Below, piece after piece: positions 26,237 through 51,115 of a DNA stretch of 64,000 nucleotides. Origin of the DNA: Hygrophila difformis (lineage: Eukaryota; Streptophyta; Magnoliopsida; Lamiales; Acanthaceae); contig JAOANR010000004.1 of NCBI GenBank assembly GCA_030278955.1, positions 20,716,976-20,780,975 of the forward strand, in the 5' to 3' direction. Within the stretch, counting starts at the first letter, position 1. Each line of letters starts with the position of its first letter. A model generated the notes under the pieces. It did not search any database, had not been told where the DNA came from, and was given only the letters and a program-made list of their open reading frames with translations. A program made the position numbers and the translations under genes.

Positions 26237-28972
26237 TGAAGCTTTGAGGTAAAACCACGATGCAATGCCCCCCGACAGCCTTTACACTATAATTCCTATA
26301 GGGCTGTTAAAAAGCTTGCCTAGTTTTTCCTACCGAAAGCGCACGGTATCAAGCTGCAATATTTATTTTAATTGTCGGGATCGTTCAAAAGAGAGTTACA
26401 CGATAGAAGTGTTTTAATAGAATTATTAGCTTTAGAATCTGTCTCTATTCTTGATTTAAGGATGTTGTAATGATGATTACTAAAGAATATTACTGAAATG
26501 TAAATGCTTAAAGCTGTAAATGTAGTAAAGAAATCAATTAAAATGATGTAGAACATTATGGTCTTATTCACGTGTTTAAGATGTTACAGACCAAATCAAA
26601 TGAAAAATGAAATAAGAATATGATGAGATTATCATACTTCATTAGCTAAAACATAATGAAAGTTCATTGAGATAGACAAATCCTTTACACAACTTAATCA
26701 ATTCTTCATGTCTTCAATCACTTCCCAAGACAGGTACTTATGATTCAGTGTCATAACATTCTAAGCTCTGAAATCATGGAATACTATCATCACAGAATGA
26801 TCTGTCAGACTCCTTCTGTGATAAAAGCTTTCAGAATCGTCACTTAATCTTTTCTTTCAGACTAGGATTAAGCCTTTGACAACTCGAGGTCACTTCTAAA
26901 TCATACTATATTCGTCTGAACTTGAAGTTGTTCTTTTTATTACCCTGATCAAACTGATCTTATGATCCTGTATTGGATGTCCTCTACAACAAATGAAAAA
27001 GCTAATATTTAAATCTATCATCCAATGTTTTAATAAGACTTATTTCTTCAGAATAATTCCTGCAAGTATTCATAAGGAATAATAGTCTTGTAAGTATATC
27101 AAGATGAAATTGCTATTCAAATTCCTTGACTTATCCAGACTACTCAGATTTGTATAAACGATTTAGCTCGAGAAATCTCTGTAAACAGTTCCAAATATCC
27201 GTGATTTGACTCAGGATTAGTAGACTGAAGAGAAATGTTTAATCTCCTACTCATAGCATATAGTGATAACTATAATACCATGAACCCCGGAAATTAATCT
27301 TCCTAATATTCTACTAATTTTTAGGACAAAAGATGGTTCTTGAAACATCTTTCCCTTTTAAACGACAGGTACTAAATGCCCAACTGAAGAACAAGTTTGT
27401 TCTTTATCAGTCCTGAGTAAATAATGATTGAGAAAACCTATATCGTCATCTCTCTCAGCGTACCAGTGTAAAATAGTAATACGTGTTGCACATATGAATT
27501 GTAAATTTATAATCATGAAGTAAGAGTACTCATCATATACTGGGAAGTATCCCAAAATATTATATGTATATGTAGTATTATATGTATAAAGAGACGTTGA
27601 GGGTTCTGAATCCTCTTAATCAAAATGCAAGGACGCTTCCAAAATATACATTGGAAACTAGACAGAATTAGGAAATAACTTTCCCAAGAAAAAGAATTTG
27701 AGAAGTAACTCTGCAAAATAAGTGTCCAAAATAGCTCGCAGTAACTATTTTGGGTTTCAAACTATGAACATTCTAATTTTCCGCACGCTATGTCTGTACA
27801 GCGTGGAGGGAGCTAATATTCAAAGAATGTTCCCCAGATTTTGTTTATACAAAGAATTGAATGCCTCGCAATAGTTTCTGTAAGAATGCGGCGAGGTGCT
27901 CAATTCCTACTTATAGATAGGGGTTATATATGTATAAGAAGTAAAAGTGAATGATTGATACCCTTTGAAATGGATATCAAGTCTATTGTTGTTATAGATT
28001 GATCCTCTCGCTTTGTCAGATTGACATCGCGTGAGTATTTGAATAGCCTTTGTCATAATAGATCTATTTGGATATTTCCTCGCGTCATCTTTTAGGATGA
28101 AGCGAGAGAATATCCTTATTCGAAGTAAATGATCAAAATTTATAACTGTCATAACTACCTTCTGGAATTTCTGTTTAGAAAATTATGAACATAGAATCTT
28201 TTGCATCCAAGTTCATGAACTCAAAGCTATTGATTCTCAAAGATTATCAAGCGATGATTAACACTGCATGGGTCTCTAGGAACCTTTTAGAGTTCTGAAA
28301 ATTAAACCCTATGATTCTCATCTGTAAACATAACATTTACAGAAAATCGAGTAAATTCATAATTCTGCCAGATCATACCTAACTCGGTTACAATATCCAA
28401 ATTTCTTACGTAATTGGAACGAACAATTTGCGCATTAAAAATGTGGAAGTGCTATGATCTTCGAAAATCGAATTAAAGATATGATGCAAAATTCAGATTG
28501 AATGATGAAATTGAGGTTTATACTCTGCTGAAACAGAATTACGAAATGAAAATAAAAACCAGAAAGATAAGAAATTCACAATCTGATAACCGATCATTCT
28601 TCCTGTATCTCAAATAACAAAGAATTAAAAACGAATACACCTGGAAATCTGATTGCTATCAGAATAATGCAAAGATGAGCGAACGAGTCGGAGTTTAGAT
28701 GATGATCGTCATGATGGATGAACAAGCGATCCGAAAGCAACTCTCCTCCCAGGGTATCCTCAAGCTAATCTAACATCTAATCTTAAAGAAATCTACTGCG
28801 AAATTGAATTACATTTCTACGAAAACAAATTACAAATCTGAAGAACATCAAAGTAAATTGCAGAGAAAATTAAATCCTAACCTACCTACTAAATTCTAAA
28901 AAGTGGACTGGAGAGTAAAATCGAGCTATTCTCTTCAATCTCCCGCCTGCTGAGCTGATTCCCCAAGGGTCT

Positions 28973-28980
28973 TATTTATA
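28973..28980 (-). promoter_or_regulatory. LTR TATA box
   Basis: Minus strand TATAAATA, with an identical copy in the 5' LTR at 50520-50527. Transcription of the element would start about 30 bp downstream. Confidence 0.6.
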
Positions 28981-29039
28981 GATGGGTGTTGTAACTGCTT
29001 CTGCCTTGGATGATAACCGCTCGCATCAGAATAGCTTTC

Positions 29040-29072
29040 CTCTCGCTTTGTCCAGTTCCTTCAAAGCGAGAG
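29040..29072. repeat. U3 hairpin CTCTCGCTTTG/CAAAGCGAGAG
   Basis: Perfect 11-bp stem (29040-29050 with 29062-29072) and 11-nt loop. Copy in the other LTR at 50587-50619. Related inverted repeats: 27784-27805, 27864-27896, 28004-28034, 28079-28107 and 29183-29205. Confidence 0.85.
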
Positions 29073-29568
29073 TCAGAAATGTAATCATCTTTCTTGACGA
29101 GGCGAGGTCTCACAGTTTCTCCAAGGAATCTGCTTCTCGCCATGACGGATAAAACTTCTGTCTTGCACAGACTTCCTTTCCTCGCGATGTCAAACAATCA
29201 TCGCGTGGACTTCAGCATCTGCACATTTTCCTTAAATCTTTTCCTGATTTCAGAAACAAGCCCTCGCACCATCCCTTTTCTTTCCTCGCTATGTCCTTTC
29301 CACTTCCTGCTGTTTTCCAGCTTAACTTCCTGATGAATGACAAAGCGTGGATCAGTTCAATAGAAATATTGCGTGCGAGACTTACAAAGAAAACTCAGAA
29401 TTTCAAGCCATTTTCCATGTATTTCCAACTTCTGTGCAATCTTAATTCTTCTACCATTTTTTCTAATCCTTTATGATTATTCATCAAAAATCAATGGAAT
29501 TAAGAGCAAAAGATCATCTTTAAGACACTAAATTGGACGCAAATGACAGTCACAAAAGACTGTCATCA

Positions 29569-30608: not shown

Positions 30609-33600
30609 TCAGGATGGTCCTGCATCATTGTCTGGATCCTTAGGTGGTATGGATGGAGATTTCTTTAGATCCGAGACTAGGTTGGCAAGAATGTCTACCA
30701 ATCTCGTGCTGTTATACTGCTCCTGTCTCCTCAGTTCCATATCCCTTTCTCGTTCCTGTCTTCTCTCTTCAAGTTCTTCTCTTCTCAGTCTTTCAAATCT
30801 TTCCATCTCTTCCCTTCTCATTCTTTCATGTCTATCCCATTCTTCCTTCCTTATCTTCTCTTGCCTCTCCATCTCCTCTTTCCTGAGTTTCTCCTCAGTT
30901 TGAATCCTAACATGCTCAAGTTCAATCCTCTTCTGCTCCATTTCTCTCTGAACATGCTTGTCTTCTGACATAGTTTGCACTAGCATTTCCATGGACTGTG
31001 CAAAACTTTGGATTGAAGTACTCATATTCTGAGATTCATCCACAGATACTGTGTTCCTCATTGGCTGTCTCACAGGTTGAGATGGTGCAGAAGTGTTCTC
31101 AAACTCTTCATCTTCTGGAATAGGATTCAATGCAGGAGATGGAGTTACAGTCTTTGTCCTTTTTGTTGTGGTTCTTGACTGATATGATCTTGATTTTGAA
31201 GGAAGATAGACCCTTTTTGCCTTAGGAGATGGCACCTTTGATCCTGATCCTTCGGAAGTTTGTTCCTCTAAATCTGGCATTTGGTAAATCAACTCTCCCC
31301 TTAAAGTGTCTTCGGGTAATGGAATAGGAGGATCTATCTTTATGATCTCTGATAAAAATGGTGTGATTGAAACTCCTTGTTTCTCACAAAGTCTTCTGAT
31401 TAAATTCGGATAAGCCAATGCTGCATCTTCTCCAACTCTTGACTTAATAACATTGAGAACATGGTGTGCAGCGCTGCATTTCCTTCCTGACCATAACAAT
31501 GCAAATCCCTCGAAAGTTCCGGCTGAGGGTCCTTGAAAATTTGTGGTAGGTCTGAGCTTTGAGTAGTAGAAATCAAGTGTAGGCAGGTACTCATGCTTCA
31601 AATTCTTCAAAGGGATCTTATTCTGCTCAGTTCCTCTGTGTGTTGAACAGAATCCCAGTGCCATTTTTCTAGCATTAACAAGTTTATTTCCTTGAGTTTT
31701 CTTCCTCAGTAGGACCTCGGATTTGACTTCTGGCTGTTCTAACAAAGGTGCCTGTATCAGATCATTTAGAGTTTCTACAGTGACTTGCACTGTTTTCCCT
31801 CTAATCCATGTTGTTTCTGCCTCAACATCAAAGTTAGCATAGAACTCCCTGGTTAGTTCCACATAACCACATTTGTTATTGTGTCTCATGAAAATGTCCC
31901 ATTCATTGATCCTCCTCCAGTAGCTGATACACTTATGATCCAGCCACTTGGGATGAAATCCTTTGTCCGGAACAATCATTTTGGACATCCCCAAGTAATT
32001 CTCCAATGCTTCCTTTCTTCCATTAAACTTAACTTTGATTTCTTCTTCTGTAAATTCAGTCCTCTTTTCAATGCTGTCAGGGATTGATAACCTCACCTTT
32101 GGACTATTCTTTCCCCAATAACTCGCAGATAGCAATTCTGGGACATCTTTTCCGGGGGATGATCCTTCAGATGTATCTGATTCATTTCCCTCGGATTCTT
32201 GTGCTTCTTCTTGCTCATCCCCAGCATTCTCATTTTCTTGTTCTTCTGTTTGGCCTCCTTCTTGAGCAGGTTCCACGTTTTCTTCATGAACTTGTTCTGA
32301 GTTTTGCTCATGGTCAGGCTCTGGATGTTCTTCTTGAACTCTATCAGTGTCATCATGTTGTGAATTGCCTATACCTGAATCATAAATCAATGACGTGCTG
32401 GTATCTACCTTCTCAGTAACTTCAAGGCTATGCTGATTTAAGATCTCTGTGGGATCTTCCTGTACAGGTTCGTTTAGTAGAAGAGGAATAGTAGTAGATT
32501 CGGAATCTAGAAATCCTTGGACTCCAAAATATTCTTCTACTCTCTTCTTCTGTTCTGCGGCCCATTCAGGATCATTCATCCTTACAATTGCTCTCTGAAC
32601 TACTTCATCCCTGACTTGAGGTGGAAGGAGCCATTGATTCATTTGATTTTCAGCATTCGTCTGTGTTCTGAGATATTGACTGACAGTGTCTTCCATAAAA
32701 TACTTTCTCTGCTGAGCTTCTTGAGTTTCATTTCTCTGCACTTCTTCTTCATAAGCTTGGATTGCTAATGGAGATGGTTCCATTACTTGGTCAGGATTTA
32801 TTTGTTGTTGGATTTCCTCTAACTCTGACTCAAGTTTAGCTGCATATTCACTTGCTTGTTCTGCTGAGGTGCGTGCATTCCCTCCTTCTCTAGCCAATTT
32901 TCTGAACCTTTTAATCAGTCCTTCCAGAGAGTAGGTCATGTTCCCGACTGTAGTTCCATGCAAGTTCATATCTTCAAAAGTCTGTAAATCTTCCAGTGTC
33001 TGTTCCTGAAATATGTCTGCCACTGATTCCTCAATTTGATTCACAAATTCTTGCTCATCTGCAGCTTGTTCTGTTGGTATATCTTGTTCAGTTTCTTTTC
33101 CTGAAAATCCTTGTAAATCAATCTGACTTTGAATGAGATCCCTGTTGACCTGAGCTTGTTGATCTTCATCTTGCCCTTCTCTATCATCTTTTTCAGTAAT
33201 ATGAACTAGTTGGAGATCAGTGCTTGGTCTGGTTGATCCTTGTTCATCAGGTTGATGTTCTTCAATGCATGCTCTCCAGCCCTCTGGATCTATATCCCCC
33301 ACTTCCAAATTAGTGTAAGGAGTGAGCTCCAACCTCTCTGTGTAGGGAACTATCCCTAGAGTTGGTTCGACTTTTTCTTCTTCAGAGCTGGTGTCAGGTA
33401 CTACATACTTAGGCTTTCTAGCCTTCATCTTTATCCTGAACTTTTTAACTGGCTTTTCAGGTTCCTTTTCTTGTTGCTTTTCTTTCTCAGGAATGATTCC
33501 CAATTGTTCTACATTCTCAAGAGAAGATCCTTGCTGCTTAAATTCTTCAGGGTTGGTTTCCTTATGCTCAGAAGGTAACCTTCCTCTCCTTTTGTAGGTA

Positions 33601-35396
33601 ACAACTTCTCTCTTTTCTTGAGCTGATTGTAGAATCTCAACATCTTCATCCATCAAATCTTTTGTCACATCCAGAATTTCTTTGGTTGCTAGCTCATCTT
33701 CATTTTTCCTCTTCTTCGGAATTCGGCTAGCTTCCTCAGACCTGCCTGTCTCCACCTTCCTCTCAGTCCTTTTCTTAGCTATTGGTACTTCATCTGAAGT
33801 GCTCGAACTGAGATTGTGTGACTTCCTCTTTTTAGAGGATACTTTCTTTTTACCTTTCTTGTCTTGAGTTCTCATGAGTTCCTCCCATTCACGATCTGCC
33901 TTTCGTTTGTTTGCATAATAGCAATCCATACTCTCTTGCAGAATCGGATGGATTTCATCATTTTCCTCATTCTTTTCTCCCAAAATAGTTGTAACCTCAT
34001 CAACTACTCTCATCCTCTCAATTTTTTGCTCATCGTCTGTACTGTCTTCATCTGAGTCGTGCTTCTTAATATAGAAGTTCTTGCCTAATCCCTTCAGCAT
34101 GATATTCATTCCCTTTCTATTCAGATATTTCTCATTCCATGCATCCCAATCATCAATAATTACCTGCTGAATTCTTCCTTGTGTTTGATCAGTGTAAGGT
34201 CTGTGCTCCTTGTATGCATTTTCCCTGCACATAGCATCATACCTGACATACTTCTCGATGAATTCTTTCTTCCTCTCCTGGACATATCCATGAACTTCCT
34301 GTTGGAGAGTTGGAGGTAATCTCTTCATGATCTTATTGGGTCTATCTGTAATGAGTAGATCTGCATCTGCTGGTGTTATTGATGGAGCTGAAACTTTTCT
34401 GAAATTCGCTACAGGTTCCAGTCCTTCATTAACAACTGATTCTCTGAAAATATTCCTTACTATATTTTGTGGTGTCTGTTTTGCATCTGATCTCTGCTTT
34501 CTGTTTTTGCCTGATCTCTCAGCTTCTCTCTTCTCTGCATCCTTAATCCATGCTTGCTGTTCTGGCATCGATTCAGCAAACTCCTCCAAAGGAAATTCCT
34601 CATTAGGTTTCCTTACCAACCCTGGTTTAAGAATCCTTTTCCTTAGATCATCCCCTTTTGACCATTTATTCATATACCTGATCCAGCTATTTCTAGCTTC
34701 CTGAATAATTCTAAGGACATCTTTCCATACCGCCTGACCTTGTTTAGCTTTCTTGAAATAAGGCTCAAGGTCATGTCTCAAATTGATCCGAGCGTCAATA
34801 ATCCTATCTAGAGCCAGGTTTGTCAAGAAATTCTGTTCAACGGGTCCCTTCTTGTTCAGGAATGTTGGAGGCATGTATGCAGGGAGTGCCTGCTGAGCAT
34901 CATAGACTCTAGCATTCCGGATTTCATTAAGTTTGCAGCAATATTTGGTGAGTCGCTTCACATATTTTGGTAGTGGTTGAGGATCAAAGTAATCCAGCTC
35001 CAGCCCTGTCTGATCTTTTGGATTGATAATTCTGTAGCACTCCTGATTCCACTCAGCCATGCACTTCCTTTCTCTTTCCAAAACTCTTTCCAGTCTGATT
35101 TCATTAGGCAGATGCCTATCATTAATCAGAATAATCATTTGATCATCCCAAAATCTATTCATCTTATCCCAGAATGCTTCTTCTAAATCAATCCTCAATG
35201 ATTCCTTTTCCTTCTCTGGTATACGTTGAAGCATAAATGGATTGATATAAAAGTCTGGAGGTGAAATTTGCATTGCTGTCCATCCACCACTTCTCCGAAT
35301 AGCTTCTACCATGTTAACCGTTCTCGTCTTTGCCAAGAATGATTTCTCTTTCTTATCCGATTCTATATTTCGAGCTTGAAGTTCTTCATAGGTCAT
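30609..35396 (-). CDS. Intact 1595-aa 3' ORF of the Athila-like element
   Basis: An uninterrupted frame in the position where Athila elements carry an env-like ORF. I see no signal peptide or membrane helix. Residues about 1-280 are charged and helical. About 525-560 is Lys-rich and NLS-like (KKGKKKVSSKKRKS). 570-1100 is very acidic and Gln/Glu-rich. About 1110-1330 contains LTREFYANFDVEAET and VTVETLNDLIQAP, similar to the 3' ORF at 19.6 kb and to the putative plant transposon protein family. About 1465-1580 is a strong coiled coil of E/R repeats. The Met start is the first of the frame; an acceptor-like site at 35407-35408 (TTTCTTAAG) lies ten bases upstream. Function unknown. A structural or nucleoprotein role is more plausible than envelope. 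Confidence 0.85.
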   Translation of the reverse strand: MTYEELQARNIESDKKEKSFLAKTRTVNMVEAIRRSGGWTAMQISPPDFYINPFMLQRIPEKEKESLRIDLEEAFWDKMNRFWDDQMIILINDRHLPNEIRLERVLERERKCMAEWNQECYRIINPKDQTGLELDYFDPQPLPKYVKRLTKYCCKLNEIRNARVYDAQQALPAYMPPTFLNKKGPVEQNFLTNLALDRIIDARINLRHDLEPYFKKAKQGQAVWKDVLRIIQEARNSWIRYMNKWSKGDDLRKRILKPGLVRKPNEEFPLEEFAESMPEQQAWIKDAEKREAERSGKNRKQRSDAKQTPQNIVRNIFRESVVNEGLEPVANFRKVSAPSITPADADLLITDRPNKIMKRLPPTLQQEVHGYVQERKKEFIEKYVRYDAMCRENAYKEHRPYTDQTQGRIQQVIIDDWDAWNEKYLNRKGMNIMLKGLGKNFYIKKHDSDEDSTDDEQKIERMRVVDEVTTILGEKNEENDEIHPILQESMDCYYANKRKADREWEELMRTQDKKGKKKVSSKKRKSHNLSSSTSDEVPIAKKRTERKVETGRSEEASRIPKKRKNEDELATKEILDVTKDLMDEDVEILQSAQEKREVVTYKRRGRLPSEHKETNPEEFKQQGSSLENVEQLGIIPEKEKQQEKEPEKPVKKFRIKMKARKPKYVVPDTSSEEEKVEPTLGIVPYTERLELTPYTNLEVGDIDPEGWRACIEEHQPDEQGSTRPSTDLQLVHITEKDDREGQDEDQQAQVNRDLIQSQIDLQGFSGKETEQDIPTEQAADEQEFVNQIEESVADIFQEQTLEDLQTFEDMNLHGTTVGNMTYSLEGLIKRFRKLAREGGNARTSAEQASEYAAKLESELEEIQQQINPDQVMEPSPLAIQAYEEEVQRNETQEAQQRKYFMEDTVSQYLRTQTNAENQMNQWLLPPQVRDEVVQRAIVRMNDPEWAAEQKKRVEEYFGVQGFLDSESTTIPLLLNEPVQEDPTEILNQHSLEVTEKVDTSTSLIYDSGIGNSQHDDTDRVQEEHPEPDHEQNSEQVHEENVEPAQEGGQTEEQENENAGDEQEEAQESEGNESDTSEGSSPGKDVPELLSASYWGKNSPKVRLSIPDSIEKRTEFTEEEIKVKFNGRKEALENYLGMSKMIVPDKGFHPKWLDHKCISYWRRINEWDIFMRHNNKCGYVELTREFYANFDVEAETTWIRGKTVQVTVETLNDLIQAPLLEQPEVKSEVLLRKKTQGNKLVNARKMALGFCSTHRGTEQNKIPLKNLKHEYLPTLDFYYSKLRPTTNFQGPSAGTFEGFALLWSGRKCSAAHHVLNVIKSRVGEDAALAYPNLIRRLCEKQGVSITPFLSEIIKIDPPIPLPEDTLRGELIYQMPDLEEQTSEGSGSKVPSPKAKRVYLPSKSRSYQSRTTTKRTKTVTPSPALNPIPEDEEFENTSAPSQPVRQPMRNTVSVDESQNMSTSIQSFAQSMEMLVQTMSEDKHVQREMEQKRIELEHVRIQTEEKLRKEEMERQEKIRKEEWDRHERMRREEMERFERLRREELEERRQERERDMELRRQEQYNSTRLVDILANLVSDLKKSPSIPPKDPDNDAGPS

Positions 35397-35439
35397 CTTA
35401 TGAATCCTTAAGAAACAAGAACAACTGGTAAATTAGTGT

Positions 35440-35579
35440 CACCATACTCACATTTAGAGCTTGACTCTAAATGTGCAAATGATAAAAGAAAAAAAAATAA
35501 TACCAGATTTTCTTTTTATATTCATCATTCTATTCATGATATCACCATACTCACATTTAGAGATTTGCTCTAAATGTGA
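35440..35579. repeat. Two perfect hairpins with polypurine-like arms
   Basis: CACATTTAGAG/CTCTAAATGTG at 35449-35475 (11-bp stem) and TCACATTTAGAG/CTCTAAATGTGA at 35551-35579 (12-bp stem), both with 5-nt loops. Each is preceded by CACCATACT, giving two 20-bp direct repeats (35440, 35543) that nearly match the LTR/polypurine junction at 29567. They lie just upstream of the 1595-codon ORF. Confidence 0.85.
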
Positions 35580-35731
35580 ACATTTCAATGCTAACTGAGT
35601 CTAATTTAATCAGAAAATAACAGGAAATTCGAATTCAAAACATCATTAATCAAAGGCAAAACAAATAGTTCATCAGATTCAAAATATGGAACTACAAAGC
35701 ATGGTGTTTCTTATGACGTTCAACCTGTCAA

Positions 35732-36479
35732 TTACAAATGAGGAGGTGTCTCTGCCTCAATTCCAAATCTTTGAAACAGATTACAATGCTCAGAAACTAA
35801 GCACCTCATACAGTAAATTGACACGACTCCATAGGTATTCCTTGAGGGACCATGATTGTTATCATAATAGCTCCTAAGGTCACAAAGTCTCTTCTTGGGT
35901 TGTCCTTGAAAGGGTGTGATGAATTCCTCATAACTGGATAACCACCCTCTGACTTGAAGTCGAAGATCCTTGAGTCTTCGTCTATTCTTGCATAGAGGAG
36001 CGAAGAGCCAAATTCCCTTCTCTTGCTCTTCCCTTTCATCCTTGCTTAAGAGCATAAGAGCTTTTACATAGATGGATGGGGGGTGATTATCAGTAATTGC
36101 AGGTTTTAAGAGTTCAAACGCTGCTTGTTCATTCTTGTCTTTGACGAACAAACGCAATGCCTCATGTAACTGGTACATCCAATTGCCTGCATTTTTGCAG
36201 GTTTCAAGGAAAATGCTTTGTGTCTCTTCAAAAGTTCCCCATCCCCATGCTGTAAAGTCTTCAAGAGAAGCCTTTTTCAAGACTAAAGGATGATGAGTAG
36301 CTTTTTCGAGCTCTTTGCAGACCAGTTTACAATTAAAGACAGTCTCAAGGTGGTCAAACGCAAATCTTGATAGAATGTTTCCAAGAATCTCATAGGGAAG
36401 ATCTGTGATCTGAGTTTCCCCCGATCCAGATTTCTCTAGTGAAGTCCTTGGTTGCTTTGATGAGGTTCCAATTTCATAG
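35732..36479 (-). CDS. F-box protein, cargo copy 1
   Basis: The F-box lies at the N-terminus (LPYEILGNILSRFAFDHLET, then CKLVCKELEKA). Family knowledge says this binds SKP1 in an SCF ubiquitin ligase. Next come a helical middle similar to the Sel1-like part of At2g35280-type F-box proteins (NAGNWMYQLHEALRLFV) and a C-terminal CMRC with an upstream PFQGQ...C. The frame is open from 36499, but the likely exon starts at 36479 after acceptor CTTTATTCAG, phase 2. No first exon with a start is visible directly upstream, so it may use a distant leader exon. Intact. Substrate unknown. Confidence 0.8.
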
Positions 36480-36639
36480 CTGAATAAAGTTAAAAACAAA
36501 AATAGAATTAAAAACTAGAGAATGCAATTCATTAATGGAAATGGGATGTACAGCTTTGAATAATCCACATAATTCTCTGTCCCAAGACAAAAACACAAAA
36601 GATACAAGCAAAGAAAATATCAATCACTTGATTTCTAGA

Positions 36640-37393
36640 TTATTCTAATTCTAGTAATTCTTCTTCATTCTGATCTTCTTCTGCATTGTTCCATTGCTCC
36701 CATTCAAATAATATGCCTAGTTCGCCACTTGCTCTTCTGTATTGCTTGACATAATCAAACAGTTCACAAGGAATGCACTCCATCCTTTCATTAAAAGGTA
36801 ATTGCTGTCGCTCTTGGATAGAGTGATTCTTACAAAAACTCCTTTCCTCTTGATCAAGGAATGGGTTTGGGAACTTTTCACCATAAAGGAGCCAGTGGAG
36901 AACACTCATTTTTAAGAATAGAAGTTCAAAAGGATCTTGAGTCACAGATTTGATCAATTGAATTCCTTCCTCATCCAGCTGCGGATCTTGTTTGGAAAGC
37001 AGTAGAAAGGATCTTATGAAAGTGGTTGGTTTGTGTTTATCATCTAAACCAGGCTTAAGAATTTCATAAGCTTTTTCCTCATTTTTATCCTCGACAAAGG
37101 CTATCAATGCAGGCACAATATTAAACATATAATTGCCTGCATCCTGACATCTTTTAATGAATCTGACTTGGTTACTTGGATAAGCATCTCCTCTCCGAAC
37201 AACACAAGTTTCCAAATTAGCTCTCTTTAGAGCTAACGATGACCTGCTTGCTGAGAGAAATTGCTTAGAAGTTTCGGGCGCTCTAAAAAGTGCCTTTATG
37301 CTTTCCATTCCTAGTCTTGACAGAATGTCTCCCAGTAACTCTATTGGTAAATCAAGTAATTGAGTTTCCAAGAGTTGAGGGTTTTCGACATTT
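36640..37393 (-). CDS. F-box protein, cargo copy 2
   Basis: F-box (LPIELLGDILSRLGMESIKA), a helical middle (CQDAGNYMFNIVPALIAFVE, AYEILKPGLDD), then NPFLDQ, Cys and CIPC near the end. An acidic tail closes it. The exon probably starts at 37393 after TTTTCTTTTCAG, phase 2, reading NVENPQ. An internal ATG at 37371 could start a 243-aa protein without splicing. It is closest to copy 4 in its middle and C-terminal wording, so the two are probably a duplicate pair. Intact. No first exon seen within 190 bp upstream. Confidence 0.8.
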
Positions 37394-37584
37394 CTGAAAA
37401 GAAAATGAGAAAGAACACATAGTTCAGAGTTAAACTCAACATTTATGTGGCAATGAGACTAGATTTTATTAGCAAAGTCAGGCTACATTACATTGTACAA
37501 AATATCTGATCTAGTGACAGTTTCAAAGTTGAAAATTAGAAGACCTGTCACATACATCAATCTCTTTCTCTTTTGTCCAAAAGC

Positions 37585-38496
37585 TTATTCATCAATGCTA
37601 TAATTATCAAAGTTCTCCCCTGATGCCATCCTAAAGTCAGCTATGGCTCTTTTTGTGTCACAGCAGAGATAGCAGACATCGGCTGTATAGTATGATGACT
37701 TATGGAAGGTTTCCTGATCACGAACTTCTACAACACAGAATTCCCTATTTTCCTGCCCTAAGAATGGATTTGGGACATATTCCCATTCTGAAACTAGGGT
37801 GAGAAGATTGTATCTAAATTCATAACTGTTTAATCTGTCTCTTAAGATTGGACTAATTAAACGAAGTCCAGCTTCTATCTCTTCCCTAGAAGTTTTACTT
37901 AGGCAACATAAAGCTTTAAAATATTGGGAAATCTTAAAGTTATCTTTTATTCCTTCATCCAGGATCTGAAATGCCTTGGATCCTTTCCCTTGTATAAACA
38001 ATTCCAAGGCCTTGGGCAAATTCAGAATATGATTCTCAGCCTCTCTACAGGCATCTAGGAATTTGATTTTACCAGAGGATTCATTAGAAATTCTTTTAAA
38101 GGCTAGATCCTGTACATTAAATCTCCGAAGGACAATAGGATATTCTATGGCTATTGTGAATGTTGAACAGATTTGTTTACACTTGAGCAGATCTTCAAAG
38201 CTGCTCTGCCCTACTCGTGACAGAATCTCCCCAAGGACATCCAATGGAAGATCAGTCAGATGTAAAGCAGAGGACTCAGAAGGCTGCTCCTCACTGTTAT
38301 TTAGTCGAATTTTAAAGAAGAAGAATCAGTTGAAATTATACTCCAAGTTTTAAAATTAGAGAAGAACGACAGTGGATGAAAAACTTAAACCCTAATATGA
38401 GTAAAAACATTAAAATGCAGAATGTAACAACTTCAAACATCTGGAAGAAATGCGATGAAAAAATGAACGGAGAGCTTACGGGTTGTTGCTCGCCAT
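37585..38496 (-). CDS. F-box protein, cargo copy 3 (two exons)
   Basis: Exon 1 is only 17 nt (38480-38496; ATGGCGAGCAACAACCC, then donor GTAAGC). A 186-nt intron ends at TAAATAACAG, and exon 2 runs 38293-37585. The join is phase 2 and gives MASNNPEEQPS followed by the F-box LPLDVLGEILSRVGQSS, CKQICSTFTIA, then VPNPFLGQ, Cys and CYLCC. A TATA-like TATATAAG at 38641-38648 on the minus strand lies about 150 bp before the ATG, so it may have its own promoter inside the retroelement. Intact. Predicted SCF substrate adaptor, substrate unknown. Confidence 0.8.
38294..38479 (-). other. Intron of F-box copy 3
   Basis: GT-AG intron of 186 nt (donor GTAAGC, acceptor AATAACAG). Its presence inside an RNA-mobilised element means the transposed RNA was unspliced here. 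Confidence 0.7.
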
Positions 38497-38640
38497 TAGG
38501 ATTGTTCCTGAAGCTGAGTGTTTCTGAAGAAGAGTTTCGCAAATAGAGGAAGAAGAAGAACTTTAAAAATGGCGGTTTCTTCTCGAGAGAGAATATGAAA
38601 AGATATGAAAATGATTTGAAAAGATAAGGAGGTTATAGGT

Positions 38641-38648
38641 CTTATATA
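38641..38648 (-). promoter_or_regulatory. TATA-like box for F-box copy 3
   Basis: Minus strand TATATAAG about 145-150 bp before the 17-nt exon. Position fits a plant core promoter; no direct proof. Confidence 0.4.
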
Positions 38649-39136
38649 AAACAATGGGCTGGCCTAGTTAAAGAATAAAAAATAGGGTACTCAAGTACTT
38701 AGAGTGTATTCACTCATTCTAGACCTGCTACATCAGTGAGTCTGGTTATTGATTTAAAAATTGAGTTAAAGAACTCAAACAACATAAATTGGATAAAATT
38801 GGATTGGTTGAAAACAAAGCGAGAGGTAATCATTGAAAAGGATTAAGACTTCTAAACTTAATATTAAGTCTGGTTAAATCTTCTTCACCAGATTCATCTT
38901 AATGCCTAACAAAAATCCACCCTTAGCTTATTTATTTAAAGATTACCAATTCTTCCATCTAATTCCTGATTTCCAGTTTCATCTTTAATTCATTTTTGAA
39001 TGAGTAAAGAAACTGATCATACAAGATAGAAAAGTAGGAGAATTGTAATACATGGAGTCCAAATGATCCAAAATACATCAAAATATCCAGAAATTACAAA
39101 CATATAAAATACTATAGAATTTCTAGCTCTAACTGC

Positions 39137-40228
39137 TCAGGGGTCAATTTCCTCATCATCGGAGTCGGTCCACATGAACTCATCAGGAAACACTTCACCA
39201 CAATACAGTCTAAACTGCCTCACCATGTCAAAGAATTGACATGGGATACAGTCCATCCTGATGTGTGGTGGTAGTAAGACTCGAACCTGCAAGGTGTGAT
39301 CCTTACAGTAGCTCATCTCTGGTTGCCCTAGAAAAGGATTTGGAAGTTGAGGAATATGGGTGAACCAATGAAAAAGATAGATTTTGATGAAAACCACTTC
39401 TAAAACATCAGAAGCTACTGTTTGGACCAACTCTAGTCCTTCTTCAATCCACTTATCCTCTTGTTTTGTTAATAGGAGCATCGTCTTGAGCAGAATAGTA
39501 GGTTCATGCCCATCATCTAGTCCTGGCTTGAGGATTTCATATGCCTTCTTCTCATCTCTTTCCTCCACAAACGCCTTTAATGCAGGTTCAATGTTGAACA
39601 TGAAGTTCCCTGCATTTTGACATTCTCGAATGAATCTTTTCTGATTGTCCGGATAAACGTCCTCTCTCCACCTCATACACGATTCCAAGTCCACTCTCTT
39701 GTAAACAAGATGGGTTTTGCTTGCCTGGTAAAATAATGGAGAGACTTCTGCTATCCTGAAAAGCTCTCTAACATTGTCTTTTCCGATTCTTGATAGAACA
39801 TCCCCCAACAACTCAGTGGGTAAATGGGATATTTGAGTCCCAATGCGCTGTGGATTCCTAGCATTTCTGTTTCCAGAAAATAATATGATAAGGAATACAG
39901 GGGAATACTTTTATGATGGAACCAAAATTTTCAAAATGGGAGTTTCATTCCTAATATGAAGTTCCAAAGTCTCATATGGATAATGCATCAGTTACAAACT
40001 AAAAATTTCAGAAAAAATTCTCTGGATTAATGAGTGTAAAGAAACGGCTCTTAGTTATGAGGAATCTTAAATGATTAATGTTTCCGTTTTCTACAGCCAT
40101 TCCCTAAAAAAATAGAATCATGAACCCTAGGTCTAGAAATGCAATCTGACAACATGCTTTGCAAAATAGAACTAAGAATAAAAGAAAGAAAGGATGAACG
40201 AGATTGCTTACGGATTGTTCTCGGCCAT
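39137..40228 (-). CDS. F-box protein, cargo copy 4 (two exons)
   Basis: Exon 1 is again 17 nt (40212-40228; ATGGCCGAGAACAATCC, donor GTAAGC). The 345-nt intron ends at GGAAACAG and exon 2 runs 39866-39137. The spliced start MAENNPNARNPQ lines up with MAAAAPNARTS of copy 5, which supports the splice. F-box LPTELLGDVLSRIGKDN; middle CQNAGNFMFNIEPALKAFVE and AYEILKPGLDD; then LPNPFLGQ, Cys and CIPC; acidic end. Intact. A weak TATA-like GATAAAAATA lies at 40361-40370. Confidence 0.82.
39867..40211 (-). other. Intron of F-box copy 4
   Basis: 345-nt GT-AG intron with the same donor (GTAAGC) and phase as in copy 3. Confidence 0.7.
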
Positions 40229-40601
40229 GTTCTTGCTTATGAGAATGGTTGAGAGCGATAAAAATGGTGTATGGCGATTTCTTCTTGAGTAAGAGAAGAA
40301 AATCTGACGAAAATTTTTGAAATGACAAGTGAGAGGAATGACTGCAAGGACAGAGACGCCTATTTTTATCTAAGGACTGCAGGGGTCAAGATAGTAAATC
40401 TTGTCTCTGCAGGGAGTAATGATTAAGCCTAGAATAACCCTATTTTGAAGATTTTTATTTAAAAGTAAAGATAAAAATCTAATGTAAAGGATAAGATCAA
40501 TCAAATTGTTTCCTTTTTATAAAAATGAAGCGAGGAGTATATATAAAGCAACACCAAAAGGAGTTAGTATTTAGATACAAATTAAGAGATTACATAATCG
40601 A

Positions 40602-41342
40602 TCAGTTTGAATCTGAATCAGTTTCTAATTCTGACTCAGATTCAATTACATGCTCATTAAAACTTTCTCTTAATCTCCTAATTAAACTAGTAACCTCACA
40701 ACACAAACAATCAATGTTTGTGGCACCATAGTTAAAGTGTGGAGGTTCCCTAACTAAGTCCCTACTGTGTGGCGCTAAATAATCACAGTACTCGCGATGT
40801 CCTTGCCCCTTAAAGGGATTAGGCTCCTCTTCGCTTTCATTGAATAACTTGCTGATCTTCGCCTCCATCTTGCGGATATGATTTTCATCTTTAAAGATTG
40901 ATCCGAGAAGATACAATCCCTCATCAATTTCCTCAAGGCTCTCCAAACTCAAAAGAATGAAGGCCTTGATAAAGATTGAGGGATGATGATTATCATCGAC
41001 TCCAGGCTTAAGGACTTCAAAAGCGGCTTCCTTGAGCCCTGTATTGCAGAATCTCAAGAGTGCAGGTTCTAGCTTCAGCATGAAATTTCCCGCCTCTCTG
41101 CATCTTCGAAGTATTCGGATGTAATGAGAGTCAAGTGTCCTCTCTGCAGTCATCCTCCTTTCCACATTTGCCCTCCTCCATACTATAGGCGCCATAGTTG
41201 CTTTGGCGAACTTTTTGCAGGTTGGGGCTAACCTGGCTACATCCTTCATCTCTTCTCTTCCCAACCTTGAGAGAATATCTCCCAAGATTTCTTCAAGAAT
41301 GTCTAGAATGGATGTTCTAGCATTTGGAGCTGCTGCGGCCAT
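40602..41342 (-). CDS. F-box protein, cargo copy 5 (single exon)
   Basis: A 246-aa frame starting MAAAAPNARTSILDILEEIL, with the F-box ILGDILSRLGREEMKDVARL and CKKFAKAT, a middle part CREAGNFMLKLEPALLRFC, FEVLKPGVDDNHHPSIFIKA, then EPNPFKGQ, Cys and CLCC, and an acidic Ser/Asp/Glu tail. It is the first cargo gene after integrase and has no intron where copies 3 and 4 have one. A TATA box (TATAAAA, 41423-41429) lies about 85 bp upstream, and beyond it is a set of hairpins related to the LTR U3. Intact; substrate unknown. Confidence 0.83.
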   Translation of the reverse strand: MAAAAPNARTSILDILEEILGDILSRLGREEMKDVARLAPTCKKFAKATMAPIVWRRANVERRMTAERTLDSHYIRILRRCREAGNFMLKLEPALLRFCNTGLKEAAFEVLKPGVDDNHHPSIFIKAFILLSLESLEEIDEGLYLLGSIFKDENHIRKMEAKISKLFNESEEEPNPFKGQGHREYCDYLAPHSRDLVREPPHFNYGATNIDCLCCEVTSLIRRLRESFNEHVIESESELETDSDSN

Positions 41343-41422
41343 TCTATCTTTTGAATATGGTTTTAAGATAATTTCTCAGGATGGAAATGTTTGAGATGAA
41401 AGAAGAGGAGGATTCGACTAGA

Positions 41423-41429
41423 TTTTATA
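41423..41429 (-). promoter_or_regulatory. TATA box for F-box copy 5
   Basis: Minus strand TATAAAA in CTATAAAATC, about 80 bp before the ATG at 41342, with U3-like hairpins further upstream. Confidence 0.5.
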
Positions 41430-41566
41430 GCAGAAAAACTAAATTCTGCCATAATTACTGGCGGTTGAAACGACGTGATGGTTAGTGTACGAGAAGAAGA
41501 AGAGTCTGAAAAGGGTATTTTGGTCTTTGAGAAGTTTGAAAATCTATCCGTTCAAAATTCCCAGAC

Positions 41567-41830
41567 TCTCGCTCTGTCGATTGTCATTGCGTGGGTATAA
41601 AAATCCTTTTCTCGCTTTGTTAATTACAAAGCGAGAAAACATTCTTGTACAATTCCCAGAGTAAAATAGTCTCGCTTTGTTTTTCGACAAAGCGTAGACA
41701 CCAAACTCTTATTCCTTAACAAATTATAATTTTGACAGAATAAAAATTTGAACTGATCACCTCGCATCATAACTTTTACAAAGCGTGAGTAAGAGTAATT
41801 CATTTTTAACTCACGCTTTGACAAAATTAC
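41567..41830. repeat. U3-like hairpin cluster before F-box copy 5
   Basis: TTTTCTCGCTTTGT/ACAAAGCGAGAAAA at 41607-41639 (perfect 14-bp stem, 5-nt loop); GTCTCGCTTTGT with ACAAAGCGTAGAC at 41669-41699 (one-base bulge); CAAAGCGTGAGT/ACTCACGCTTTG at 41779-41820 (12-bp stem). The core matches the LTR hairpin at 29040-29072. Confidence 0.85.
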
Positions 41831-45283: not shown

Positions 45284-47671
45284 TCATGTCTTTACTATAA
45301 CATCTTCAATGATCCCTTCTGGTCTGGTGCTCGATTGATCAGCAAAGAAGAGGGTCATATTGACTGGCCTCATCTTTCCCAAATCCAAACGTCTCGCTAT
45401 AGCCAATGGCATTACATTGATGTTGCTTCCTAAGTCGCAGAGTCCTCGCCCAGCTTCTTTACAGTTGATAATCAGAGGTAAAGTGAAACTCCCTGGATCT
45501 TCAAGCTTTGGAGGAATCCTCTGCTGAAGAACCAAGCTACAGTTTTGATTTAGGACCACCATGTGCTGCTCTCCTGCACTTCTTTTCCCTGAAATTAATT
45601 CTTTCAGAAACTTAGCGTAAGTGGGCATTTCAGCAATTAATTCAACCAAAGGGATTGATATTTCAATGGCCTTAATCTTTTCAAGAAATTTCTTAAATTT
45701 AATTTCTTGAAGATCATTTTTAAGTCTCCCAGGATATGGTATCCTGGGCATGTGCTCATCCAGTGAATCCTTTTTGTTACCTGTAGAGTTAGGATTATCA
45801 TTACCTCCCTCTTTTTCCTTAGGAAAAGAATATCCTGAGACATTCTTTTCCAAACCCTTATCCTCAAGTATCTGTCTCTGTTCAGGGTGATCATCTTCTT
45901 CCATTGTTTGAACATCCTTGAACTTTTTCTGCTGCAGCAACCTATCTCTTTTCTTTTCAAATTCAGGATCAACAACCTCTTTTCCTCCCCTCAATGTAAC
46001 TGCCTTACATTGTGGATTTGTTTCAGAAGAACTTGGTAATTTTCCTTTTTCTCTCTGCTGTAGTAATTTGGCCATCTCTGTTACTGAATTCTCAACATTC
46101 TTGATTGAAGCCTGCAGTTGGTTATTCGTCTCTGTCTGCTTAACAATGAACTCCTTCAGAGCATTTTCCACCTTTAAAGAGTAAGTATTATCTTGAGCAA
46201 CAGGATAAGGTTGTTGTGGAAAGTTCACTGGGACTGGTGCAAACTGTCCAAACGGCCTATTCTGTTGGTTCACCTGTTGGAAAGGTCTCTGTGGGTACAT
46301 CTGTTGTTGTGGATAAAATGGTTGTGGAGGACGAAACTGCTGCTGATTTGGTTGTTGTGGGTTCAGAAGATGTGCATTTTGTGCGTTCTGAGTATTACCA
46401 TAGCTCGGATTCGGGTGTTTGTTTTGGAATCCGGTGTAGTTGCAGCTCTCATCTTGCTTTGGGGCTTCCTGAATTTGTGGACACTGATCATTGTGATGTG
46501 GCCCTGAGCAAATTCCGCACTGATACACAGGTTCCATTGGAGCAGGTTGAAGGATCATTACTGGTTGCTGTTGTTGTTGATGCTGAGCCTGTTGATTTGC
46601 TTGCTGAGCCAACTGTAGATCAGCAATCTGCTTGGTGAGTGCTGCAAATTTCTCTTCATTTTTATCTGTATGGATGACAAGACTTTTTCTGGTAGGAGAT
46701 GGTGGATCATCGTCCTGGAGGACTGCCCTGCTGGCTGTCATAGTATCTATTGTTGACCACGCTCTATCAAGTGGCATTTGAAGCAATTGTTCCCCTCCAG
46801 TGGCATTGATCATCATCTGCCAAGTGTGAGTGAGTCCGGTGAAGAAAATTTTCAATAGCCTTCTTTCAGTTATACCATGTTGTGGACATCTCTTGAGCAT
46901 GTCAAAGAATCTGTCCCGGGCATCCTTAAGAGATTCCCCTTTTCTCATCTTGAAACTAGAGATCTTGTCTACCCATTCGTCAACCTTGATTTCAGGAAAA
47001 TACTTAAGTAGGAAATTCCTGACTAATTCTGGCCATGTAGCCTTCTGTTGAGCATTTAATGAATCATACCATTCTTTAGTGGAGCCATCCAAAGAGAATG
47101 GAAACATAGCCAATTGAATGGTTTCCCTTGAAGCTCTTCCTTTCTTTACTGTCTTACTTAGTTCAACAAACTTCTTGAGATGTAAATGTGGATCTTCAGC
47201 ACTCATTCCATAAAAAGCTCTAGAAGATGCTAGGTTCAATATACCAGGTGGTATATCAACCTCCTCATCTGTCCCAGCCAAATATTGATCGACATTAGGT
47301 TGCCATGGTTGATATTGCTCTTCTTGAGGGTTCGGAACAGGATTAGCAAAATTTGGTGGAAAATAGTGTTGATGAATAAATTGTGGTGCAGCAGCTCTTT
47401 GTGGTGCTTGAAAAGGTCCTCGAAGTGGAATGTTTTGCTGATTATCTGGTTGTCCATTTGGCAAGTTCCCAGGTCCGTCATTCTGTCCATTGTTAGCCAT
47501 CCTTGTTATGGTTGAAAGATTTCCTTCTGCAAGATCTCTCTGTCTCCTTCTTGCACTTGCTCTGATCAGCCTTGCTGTTCTCTCAAGTTCACAATTAAAA
47601 GGAAGCAAAGGTGGTCTTGAAGATCGAGTTTTTCTCTCGCTCATAAACTGTTGAGGCTTCTCTGTGAACAA
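45284..47671 (-). CDS. gag: Athila-like Gag-protease (795 codons, ends in premature TGA)
   Basis: Gag core at about residues 135-300 (ILNLASSRAFYGMSAEDPHL, FSLDGSTKEWYDSL, FLLKYFPEIKVDEWVDKI), a Gln-rich stretch, a zinc knuckle CGICSGPHHNDQC at about 388-400, a Gln/Pro-rich region and a coiled coil (ENALKEFIVKQTETNNQLQ). The protease active site CDLGSNINVMP lies at about 740-750. A TGA at 45284-45286 stops it inside the protease (VIVKT then stop, followed in frame by GLCFPADF), probably from CGA. Gag itself is intact and could form particles. MFTEKPQQF is the first Met; MSERKTRSS nine codons later is an alternative. Confidence 0.88.
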   Translation of the reverse strand: MFTEKPQQFMSERKTRSSRPPLLPFNCELERTARLIRASARRRQRDLAEGNLSTITRMANNGQNDGPGNLPNGQPDNQQNIPLRGPFQAPQRAAAPQFIHQHYFPPNFANPVPNPQEEQYQPWQPNVDQYLAGTDEEVDIPPGILNLASSRAFYGMSAEDPHLHLKKFVELSKTVKKGRASRETIQLAMFPFSLDGSTKEWYDSLNAQQKATWPELVRNFLLKYFPEIKVDEWVDKISSFKMRKGESLKDARDRFFDMLKRCPQHGITERRLLKIFFTGLTHTWQMMINATGGEQLLQMPLDRAWSTIDTMTASRAVLQDDDPPSPTRKSLVIHTDKNEEKFAALTKQIADLQLAQQANQQAQHQQQQQPVMILQPAPMEPVYQCGICSGPHHNDQCPQIQEAPKQDESCNYTGFQNKHPNPSYGNTQNAQNAHLLNPQQPNQQQFRPPQPFYPQQQMYPQRPFQQVNQQNRPFGQFAPVPVNFPQQPYPVAQDNTYSLKVENALKEFIVKQTETNNQLQASIKNVENSVTEMAKLLQQREKGKLPSSSETNPQCKAVTLRGGKEVVDPEFEKKRDRLLQQKKFKDVQTMEEDDHPEQRQILEDKGLEKNVSGYSFPKEKEGGNDNPNSTGNKKDSLDEHMPRIPYPGRLKNDLQEIKFKKFLEKIKAIEISIPLVELIAEMPTYAKFLKELISGKRSAGEQHMVVLNQNCSLVLQQRIPPKLEDPGSFTLPLIINCKEAGRGLCDLGSNINVMPLAIARRLDLGKMRPVNMTLFFADQSSTRPEGIIEDVIVKT

Positions 47672-47765
47672 AATGAAAGAATTTGTGAATTCGTTATAAT
47701 AAAAAGTAAATAATTACAATTAAACCAAGAATATCTACAGTTCTAAAATTCATAACGCTACACCC

Positions 47766-47783
47766 TCCCCGGCAACGGCGCCA
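47766..47783 (-). other. Primer-binding site, tRNA-Asp type
   Basis: Minus strand TGGCGCCGTTGCCGGGGA, directly next to the LTR edge at 47784. This is the sequence known for Athila-type elements, matching the 3' end of plant tRNA-Asp. Confidence 0.9.
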
Positions 47784-50700
47784 TGAAGCTTTGAGGTAAA
47801 ACCCCGATGCAATGCCCCCCGACAGCCTTTACACTATAATTCCTATAGGGCTGTTAAAAAGCTTGCCTAGTTTTTCCTACCGAAAGCGCACGGTATCAAG
47901 CTGCAATATTTATTTTAATTGTCGGGATCGTTCAAAAGAGAGTTACACGATAGAAGTGTTTTAATAGAATTATTAGCTTTAGAATCTGTCTCTATTCTTG
48001 ATTTAAGGATGTTGTAATGATGATTACTAAAGAATATTACTGAAATGTAAATGCTTAAAGCTGTAAATGTAGTAAAGAAATCAATTAAAATGATGTAGAA
48101 CATTATGGTCTTATTCACGTGTTTAAGATGTTACAGACCAAATCAAATGAAAAATGAAATAAGAATATGATGAGATTATCATACTTCATTAGCTAAAACA
48201 TAATGAAAGTTCATTGAGATAGACAAATCCTTTACACAACTTAATCAATTCTTCATGTCTTCAATCACTTCCCAAGACAGGTACTTATGATTCAGTGTCA
48301 TAACATTCTAAGCTCTGAAATCATGGAATACTATCATCACAGAATGATCTGTCAGACTCCTTCTGTGATAAAAGCTTTCAGAATCGTCACTTAATCTTTT
48401 CTTTCAGACTAGGATTAAGCCTTTGACAACTCGAGGTCACTTCTAAATCATACTATATTCGTCTGAACTTGAAGTTGTTCTTTTTATTACCCTGATCAAA
48501 CTGATCTTATGATCCTGTATTGGATGTCCTCTACAACAAATGAAAAAGCTAATATTTAAATCTATCATCCAATGTTTTCATAAGACTTATTTCTTCAGAA
48601 TAATTCCTGCAAGTATTCATAAGGAATAATAGTCTTGTAAGTATATCAAGATGAAATTGCTATTCAAATTCCTTGACTTATCCAGACTACTCAGATTTGT
48701 ATAAACGATTTAGCTCGAGAAATCTCTGTAAACAGTTCCAAATATCCGTGATTTGACTCAGGATTAGTAGACTGAGGAGAAATGTTTAATCTCCTACTCA
48801 TAGCATATAGTGATAACTATAATACCATGAACCCCGGAAATTAATCTTCCTAATATTCTACTAATTTTTAGGACAAAAGATGGTTCTTGAAACATCTTTC
48901 CCTTTTAAACGACAGGTACTAAATGCCCAACTGAAGAACAAGTTTGTTCTTTATCAGTCCTGAGTAAATAATGATTGAGAAAACCTATATCATCATCTCT
49001 CTCAGCGTACCAGTGTAAAATAGTAATACGTGTTGCACATATGAATTGTAAATTTATAATCATGAAGTAAGAGTACTCATCATATACTGGGAAGTATCCC
49101 AAAATATTATATGTATATGTAGTATTATATGTATAAAGTGACGTTGAGGGTTCTGAATCCTCTTAATCAAAATGCAAGGACGCTTCCAAAATATACATTG
49201 GAAACTAGACAGAATTAGGAAATAACTTTCCCAAGAAAAAGAATTTGAGAAGTAACTCTGCAAAATAAGTGTCCAAAATAGCTCGCAGTAACTATTTTGG
49301 GTTTCAAACTATGAACATTCTAATTTTCCGCACGCTATGTCTGTACAGCGTGGAGGGAGCTAATATTCAAAGAATGTTCCCCAGATTTTGTTTATACAAA
49401 GAATTGAATGCCTCGCAATAGTTTCTGTAAGAATGCGGCGAGGTGCTCAATTCCTACTTATAGATAGGGGTTATATATGTATAAGAAGTAAAAGTGAATG
49501 ATTGATACCCTTTGAAATGGATATCAAGTCTATTGCTGTTATAGATTGATCCTCTCGCTTTGTCAGATTGACATCGCGTGAGTATTTGAATAGCCTTTGT
49601 CATAATAGATCTATTTGGATATTTCCTCGCGTCATCTTTTAGGATGAAGCGAGAGAATATCCTTATTCGAAGTAAATGATCAGAATTTATAACTGTCATA
49701 ACTACCTTCTGGAATTTCTGTTTAGAAAATTATGAACATAGAATCTTTTGCATCCAAGTTCATGAACTCAAAGCTATTGATTCTCAAAGATTATCAAGCG
49801 ATGATTAACACTGCATGGGTCTCTAGGAACCTTTTAGAGTTCTGAAAATTAAACCCTATGATTCTCATCTGTAAACATAACATTTACAGAAAATCGAGTA
49901 AATTCATAATTCTGCCAGATCATACCTAACTCGGTTACAATATCCAAATTTCTTACGTAATTGGAACGAACAATTTGCGCATTAAAAATGTGGAAGTGCT
50001 ATGATCTTCGAAAATCGAATTAAAGATATGATGCAAAATTCAGATTGAATGATGAAATTGAGGTTTATACTCTGCTGAAACAGAATTACGAAATGAAAAT
50101 AAAAACCAGAAAGATAAGAAATTCACAATCTGATAACCGATCATTCTTCCTGTATCTCAAATAACAAAGAATTAAAAACGAATACACCTGGAAATCTGAT
50201 TGCTATCAGAATAATGCAAAGATGAGCGAACGAGTCGGAGTTTAGATGATGATCGTCATGATGGATGAACAAGCGATCCGAAAGCAACTCTCCTCCCAGG
50301 GTATCCTCAAGCTAATCTAACATCTAATCTTAAAGAAATCTACTGCGAAATTGAATTACATTTCTACGAAAACAAATTACAAATCTGAAGAACATCAAAG
50401 TAAATTGCAGAGAAAATTAAATCCTAACCTACCTACTAAATTCTAAAAAGTGGACTGGAGAGTAAAATCGAGCTATTCTCTTCAATCTCCCGCCTGCCGA
50501 GCTGATTCCCCAAGGGTCTTATTTATAGATGGGTGTTGTAACTGCTTCTGCCTTGGATGATAACCGCTCGCATCAGAATAGCTTTCCTCTCGCTTTGTCC
50601 AGTTCCTTCAAAGCGAGAGTCAGAAATGTAATCATCTTTCTTGACGAGGCGAGGTCTCACAGTTTCTCCAAGGAATCTGCTTCTCGCCATGACGGATAAA

Positions 50701-51115
50701 ACTTCTGTCTTGCACAGACTTCCTTTCCTCGCGATGTCAAACAATCATCGCGTGGACTTCAGCATCTGCACATTTTCCTTAAATCTTTTCCTGATTTCAG
50801 AAACAAGCCCTCGCACCATCCCTTTTCTTTCCTCGCTATGTCCTTTCCACTTCCTGCTGTTTTCCAGCTTAACTTCCTGATGAATGACAAAGCGTGGATC
50901 AGTTCAATAGAAATGTTGCGTGCGAGACTTACAAAGAAAACTCAGAATTTCAAGCCATTTTCCATGTATTTCCAACTTCTGTGCAATCTTAATTCTTCTA
51001 CCATTTTTTCTAATCCTTTATGATTATTCATAAAAAATCAATGGAATTAAGAGCAAAAGATCATCTTTAAGACACTAAATTGGACGCAAATGACAGTCAC
51101 AAAAGACTGTCATCA
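47784..51115 (-). repeat. 5' LTR of the Athila-like element
   Basis: 3332 bp, paired with 26237-29568. By-eye differences include 26258/47805 (A/C) and sites near 27034, 27231, 27450, 27598, 27989, 28137, 28950, 29370 and 29490 of the left copy. TATA box at 50520-50527. Followed by the TSD ATGTT at 51116-51120. Confidence 0.95.

Follow-up and report, generated by a model that had tools for sequence, protein, structure and literature searches.

A five-gene F-box array carried by a high-copy Athila-like LTR retrotransposon of Hygrophila difformis

Plant long terminal repeat (LTR) retrotransposons with accessory genes are already known. In pepper, host NLR gene families have been amplified inside LTR elements, with two or three genes per element occurring and ~72% of the NLR retroduplicates sitting in elements without gag-pol (PMC5664825; statements on papers cited by PMC number refer to the parts of each that were available). 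Gypsy elements of 25 kb in Phalaenopsis encode an AlkB N6-methyladenosine (m6A) demethylase proposed to counter host control (PMC9289625). For F-box genes, the nearest statement found concerns Thlaspi arvense, in which an LTR element is mentioned as containing a member of the F-box family (PMC8764390); in nematodes, fusions of F-box genes with a transposase domain have also been described (PMC12062965). Here we analyze a 64-kb window (the whole stretch of DNA under study, C10:20716976-20780975) of the Hygrophila difformis assembly (915 Mb, 246 contigs), in which an Athila-like LTR retrotransposon carries five F-box genes, F1 to F5. No role is known for most of the extra open reading frames (ORFs) that plant LTR elements carry, whereas the five genes here point to the SKP1-cullin-F-box (SCF) ubiquitin ligase pathway. 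Comparisons between copies suggest that the array is a fixed accessory module of the element, kept by purifying selection.

The element shares with the Athila lineage (Athila, Calypso, Diaspora and sunflower Athila 14) a gag-pol region followed by a sense ORF in the env position. In Athila 14 that ORF has 487 aa and carries PF20167 (PMC11728184), and Calypso and Diaspora use a tRNA-Asp primer binding site (PBS; PMC1142308). By contrast, here five F-box genes lie between integrase and the third ORF (ORF3), ORF3 itself reaches 1595 aa, and the PBS directly adjoins the LTR instead of lying 5 bp away. The total length of 24.9 kb exceeds the range of 4.4-24.1 kb in a previous survey (PMC6317226). 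As in pepper and Thlaspi, host gene families have been amplified within LTR elements; those cases, however, are reported as retroduplicates serving host families (PMC5664825, PMC8764390), whereas the array described here comprises five genes, is fixed in a family that has gag-pol, and shows constraint between copies. The Phalaenopsis elements are likewise giant Gypsy elements with a host-derived accessory gene, but theirs is a single RNA demethylase ORF (PMC9289625). Polerovirus P0 and nanovirus Clink interact with SKP1, and P0 targets AGO1 (PMC6784205). The likeness to these proteins lies in a plant parasite encoding F-box-type proteins, although SKP1 binding is here a prediction from domains, no homology is claimed, and the five proteins have a host F-box/TPR_27 architecture and sit in a retrotransposon. 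The word F-box is absent from the available main text of the survey of non-canonical domains in 121 angiosperm genomes (PMC9289625), and a full-text search of open-licence papers, judged on titles and abstract openings, returned no LTR retrotransposon with an F-box array. We thus found no earlier description of a diversified, intron-bearing array of this kind.

Architecture of the F-box genes

The initial annotation, made from the letters of the window, had proposed five intact, paralogous F-box ORFs on one strand. All five were recovered at the following positions (splice junctions are marked by a slash; distinct loci include the window copy and omit L031, a duplicate identical to L032 in F3-F5; L030 lacks F1):

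40602..41342, minus strand: F1, F-box/TPR_27 gene, intronless, own ATG; TATAAAA at ~41429; intact in 18/21 loci
40212..40228, minus strand: F2 exon 1 (ATG ... CC/GTAAGC), 17 nt, coding for MAENNP
39137..39866, minus strand: F2 exon 2, F-box/TPR_27; intact in 20/22 loci
38480..38496, minus strand: F3 exon 1 (ATG ... CC/GTAAGC), 17 nt, coding for MASNNP; TATATAAG at ~38648
37585..38293, minus strand: F3 exon 2, F-box/TPR_27; intact in 21/23 distinct loci
36640..37393, minus strand: F4, F-box/TPR_27 exon with in-phase acceptor; intact in 23/23 distinct loci
35732..36479, minus strand: F5, F-box/TPR_27 exon with in-phase acceptor; intact in 20/23 distinct loci

The proteins are paralogous as claimed, with pairwise identities of 25-52% (F2-F4 being closest) and 24 invariant alignment columns. 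Chance ORFs are ruled out by this mutual homology (E down to 1e-89) and by the in-frame constraint described below. The profile search suggested in the initial annotation, run on the stop-to-stop readings, gave Pfam matches to F-box or F-box-like and, downstream of it, to TPR_27 in 5/5 genes; F1, F4 and F5 passed a cut-off for F-box or F-box-like, and F4 and F5 that for TPR_27. An N-terminal F-box position is kept in all five, with an invariant L-G-x-x-L-S-R. The C-terminal pattern is better written as P-F-x-x-Q ... C ... C than as the NPFxGQ first proposed, which is broken in F4 (NPFLDQ) and F5 (TPFQGQ).

The frames are open, yet not all are complete genes as they stand: F1 alone has its own ATG, and F2-F5 have no in-frame ATG ahead of the F-box. 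F2 and F3 acquire one from their short first exons, across introns of 345 and 187 bp, and in each of F2-F5 an AG acceptor stands in the same phase right before the homologous codon. The uninterrupted MAAAAP-NARTS of F1 corresponds to MAENNP/NARNPQ in F2, where the intron falls at the slash, which suggests that F1 has lost its intron. For F4 and F5 we infer splicing from F3 exon 1, which would be in frame. Upstream of F1 and F3 (41616-41636 and 38804-38824), a 21-bp motif around ACAAAGCGAGA is shared at 81% identity and is a possible common promoter element.

Copies across the genome and selection between them

Counts of 28-mer patterns in the host assembly (up to two mismatches; reversed control 0) gave 343 matches for F1, 328 for F3 exon 1 and 344 for ORF3. 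Because the window is free of N and the block recurs at many places, an assembly join can be dismissed, and with it the one-off insertion or artefact that the initial annotation had named as the outcome that would count against a cargo-bearing family. A search with the 6.7-kb block (best 24 of 1053 candidates scored) returned matches of 97-100% identity throughout, of which 18 span the whole query; three, on C14, begin only at base 47, and the last three are shorter, at 5.4 kb (one match) and 3.2 kb (two matches). The first 21 of these loci are spread over 11 large contigs and one small contig and diverge from one another by a median of 2.0% (maximum 3.1%). With F4 as protein query, at least 150 genome matches were obtained, 95-100% identical from residue 1 or 2 to 243, and a single stop occurred in 12 of the 150 listed. 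In all 11 additional F4 loci examined, F4 was flanked by F3 and F5 sequence in the proper order.

The array keeps a mostly constant spacing to the LTRs and to ORF3. A listed F4 lay on the same strand within 40 kb of 32/40 LTR matches (best 40 of 2030 candidates scored); the other eight may be solo LTRs or adjoin F4 copies outside the listed matches. On C1-C6, 63 of the 72 exact ORF3 ends had an F-box marker at most 3.6 kb upstream among the matches listed. For the remaining nine, the upstream marker is one of F1, at a distance of 6.0-6.1 kb in four (5996 bp in the window), ~3.55 kb in two, and 9.8, 14.9 and 23.1 kb in one each. The extra genes are thus carried throughout this family, although close relatives without the F-box block may exist. 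A separate nested transposon carrying the block was rejected, since no long terminal repeats flank it around 35300-42200; an ancient insertion is possible. At C14:49687462-49734732, three block copies (L022, L023, L024) lie in one orientation ~20 kb apart with 0.17-0.30% block divergence; they look like a tandem array of elements, and part of the integrase is missing there.

Coding capacity is largely preserved: 102 of 112 F-box gene copies at the 23 distinct loci have intact frames. The F2 exon-1 donor is unchanged in 21/21 loci with a probe match (L028 has none; L031 and L032 end short), and F3 exon 1 with its donor is present in 24/24. More than 90% of the F2 intron is retained in 21/24 loci (two do not reach it and one aligns over 283/345 positions), and the F3 intron is present in 24/24; the introns evidently survive retrotransposition. 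Exact TATA strings occur in 21/24 loci for F1 and 22/24 for F3. The first 1.29 kb of ORF3 is open in 16/18 loci. A 1494-bp part of the integrase is open in 10/18 copies and interrupted in 8/18 (upstream flanks of L010-L029); since the F-box frames there are mostly intact, many copies may move only with the help of others.

Changes between copies were divided into shared (in two or more copies) and single (in one), and the ratio of nonsynonymous to synonymous changes (N/S) was expressed relative to neutral. Across the five F-box genes, shared changes stood at 0.19 of neutral (N30 S67, p 1.5e-15) and single-copy changes at 0.53 (N127 S101, p 2.3e-6), the p-values treating sites as independent. 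By gene, the shared ratio was 0.13 for F1, 0.12 for F2, 0.28 for F3, 0.75 for F4 and 0.11 for F5. Wrong-frame controls on the same genes gave 1.61 and 1.60 for shared changes; three non-coding stretches read in three frames each ranged from 0.57 to 1.96, again for shared changes and none significantly. Among single-copy changes, one spacer frame had a nominally low ratio (0.52, p 0.012). The element's own genes were also constrained, as genes of an element should be, with shared ratios of 0.02 for the integrase part and 0.15 for the first 1.29 kb of ORF3, and a single-copy ratio of 0.34 for integrase. For the F-box genes the shared ratio stayed at 0.12-0.22 after dropping the near-identical loci (L017, L023, L024 and L031), masking CpG and varying kappa.

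The low shared N/S relative to wrong frames and spacers suggests that nonsynonymous change was purged in the lineages that founded new copies, and we read the signal as showing that the F-box genes were needed there. Together, the hundreds of copies, the high proportion of intact frames and the shared ratio argue against a one-off and for a fixed accessory module maintained by purifying selection, in line with the cargo-bearing family first proposed.

Proposed function and rival explanations

We consider it probable that an Athila-like element took up host-type F-box/TPR_27 genes and now carries the five-gene array as SCF adaptors serving the element itself. Under this proposal the genes were acquired by a high-copy element; that they move with it as a block, between integrase and ORF3, is shown by the copies. 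They would be expressed from their own TATA promoters, F4 and F5 presumably by way of the F3 first exon. In each product the F-box is predicted to bind SKP1 and the TPR/cysteine part to bind a substrate, so that the proteins, perhaps with different substrates, would direct SCF ubiquitin ligases against host proteins that hold the element in check, and these would then be degraded. Given the precedent of polerovirus P0, components of silencing are the most likely kind of target. A more elaborate version is offered tentatively and has less than an even chance in our estimation. In it the element runs its own panel of five diversified adaptors, three of them possibly produced by alternative splicing of a single short first exon. 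Jointly the five would eliminate a number of host restriction factors, silencing components among them, in the manner of viral accessory proteins.

Several observations weigh against the proposal of element-serving adaptors. The loci compared for selection were those listed as most similar to the window copy. For F4 alone, with 7 N and 4 S among its 11 shared changes, there is no significant signal. F2 and F3 lie under the Pfam cut-offs for both F-box and TPR_27, and the TPR_27 score of F1 also falls short. No first exon of their own was seen for F4 and F5 in the gaps preceding them (190 and 160 bp). Finally, the quality of the AlphaFold model for F1 (mean predicted local distance difference test 45.5) was too low for use.

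The sub-threshold scores of F2 and F3 also bear on an unlikely but not negligible alternative, that the proteins are no longer SCF adaptors and use the F-box/TPR fold otherwise, for instance to bind RNA or Gag. Structural evidence (the F1 model and a PDB sequence search, which returned only two chains of the TPR chaperone SycD at E 0.61-0.70) gave no confirmation of an adaptor fold. Retention of the N-terminal F-box position with its invariant motif in all five proteins, and the three proteins that do exceed an F-box or F-box-like cut-off, favor adaptors nonetheless. Selection on behalf of the host, with some copies being host F-box genes and others their recent by-products, seems still less probable. 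The genes look host-like in having introns and TATA boxes, the F-box frames are mostly intact although integrase is open in just over half of the copies, and even single-copy changes fall below neutral; yet the shared constraint spans the whole copy tree, the same copies show constraint on integrase and ORF3 as well, and the single-copy ratio of integrase is lower still than that of the F-box genes. Least plausible of all, to the point of being very improbable, is passenger cargo: a host F-box array that was picked up in a single chance event and then multiplied along with the element, serving no function. Gene capture by plant LTR elements is common (PMC5664825) and the small median divergence would allow all copies to stem from a few masters, but drift of functionless cargo fits poorly with shared changes so far below neutral when spacers of the same copies are unconstrained, or with the intact frames and the kept splice sites.

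A search of the host assembly for TPR_27 genes gave at least 150 matches, of which 75 adjoin a listed F4; by eye, most show the 260-codon frame of F5. One match, at C10:34089231 (L045, C10:34088500-34090000; 52 bits), differs: it is a TPR_27 gene split into two or more exon pieces, has a cysteine-rich tail, and shares 16% identity with F5 across 110 aa. We infer that it is a long-diverged member of the host family that gave rise to the array. Synonymous divergence between the paralogs was saturated or undefined in the dN/dS analysis; duplication before capture is therefore indistinguishable from duplication after it, and no age is claimed for the array. An alignment of the five proteins searched against a large protein database gave 2191 candidates, none at E <= 0.001, a result of low weight since it had no plant control, and scans of viral contigs with F4 and integrase found no relative.

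That selection kept five adaptor genes working in hundreds of copies suggests that the element borrows the host degradation machinery for its own benefit. What sets the case apart is the combination of five diversified genes with a selection signal between copies. Whether plant retrotransposons encode adaptors for the removal of host proteins, as some plant viruses do, thereby becomes testable. Counts of F-box genes in H. difformis may, in addition, be inflated by a mobile element.

The element and its surroundings

The remaining features of the element are:

26237-51115, minus strand: whole Athila-like LTR retrotransposon, 24,879 bp, within the 64-kb window
47784..51115, minus strand: 5' LTR, 3332 bp, ends and target site duplication (TSD) located
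47766..47783, minus strand: PBS, TGGCGCCGTTGCCGGGGA, abutting the 5' LTR with no gap
45284..47713, minus strand: gag and protease frame, stop to stop, PF03732
42079..45283, minus strand: remaining pol in three frames (44651-45283; reverse transcriptase 43857-44717; RNase H-integrase 42079-43872)
35439..35583, minus strand: two internal copies of the motif beside the polypurine tract (PPT), AAATGTGAG(T/G)ATGGTGA, which also adjoins the 3' LTR (29582)
30609..35396, minus strand: ORF3, 1595 aa, Transposase_32 (PF20167) at residues 1165-1342
26237..29568, minus strand: 3' LTR, 3332 bp, ends and TSD located

Matching LTRs, a TSD, a PBS, gag and the order reverse transcriptase-RNase H-integrase identify a Ty3/gypsy LTR retrotransposon; gag, reverse transcriptase, RNase H and integrase are all recognised by Pfam. 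The matching LTRs and TSD of a young element, as initially described, were confirmed: the LTR pair is 99.7% identical over 3332 bp, and the 5-bp TSD reads AACAT on the element strand (ATGTT on the plus strand) at 26232-26236 and 51116-51120. At a rate of 1.3e-8, as used in PMC5664825, the 0.3% LTR divergence would place the insertion at roughly 0.1 million years ago. The pol region of the window copy is interrupted, being divided among several frames with an in-frame stop past the protease region.

The gene order is gag-pol with integrase, the five F-box genes, two PPT-like motifs, ORF3 and the 3' LTR. The block accordingly follows integrase, as initially annotated, but is separated from the 3' LTR by ORF3. 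The PF20167 match in ORF3 is narrow (45.2 bits against a cut-off of 45), and the first ~900 residues have no Pfam match; PF03078 was not matched by the element's ORFs in the Pfam search. The PBS may pair with tRNA-Asp. Together with the PF20167 ORF in the env position, it is the basis for calling the element Athila-like. The motif copies directly upstream of ORF3 (35439-35583) are hairpin-like and might act as internal PPTs.

Rfam and tRNA scans found no matches. Elsewhere in the window, a second pair of direct repeats (52483-55086 and 60541-63145) is 98.6% identical over 2.6 kb and is probably the LTR pair of a second element. The stretch 10702-19135 contains several repeats, both inverted and direct (72-93% identity), which are probably older nested elements.

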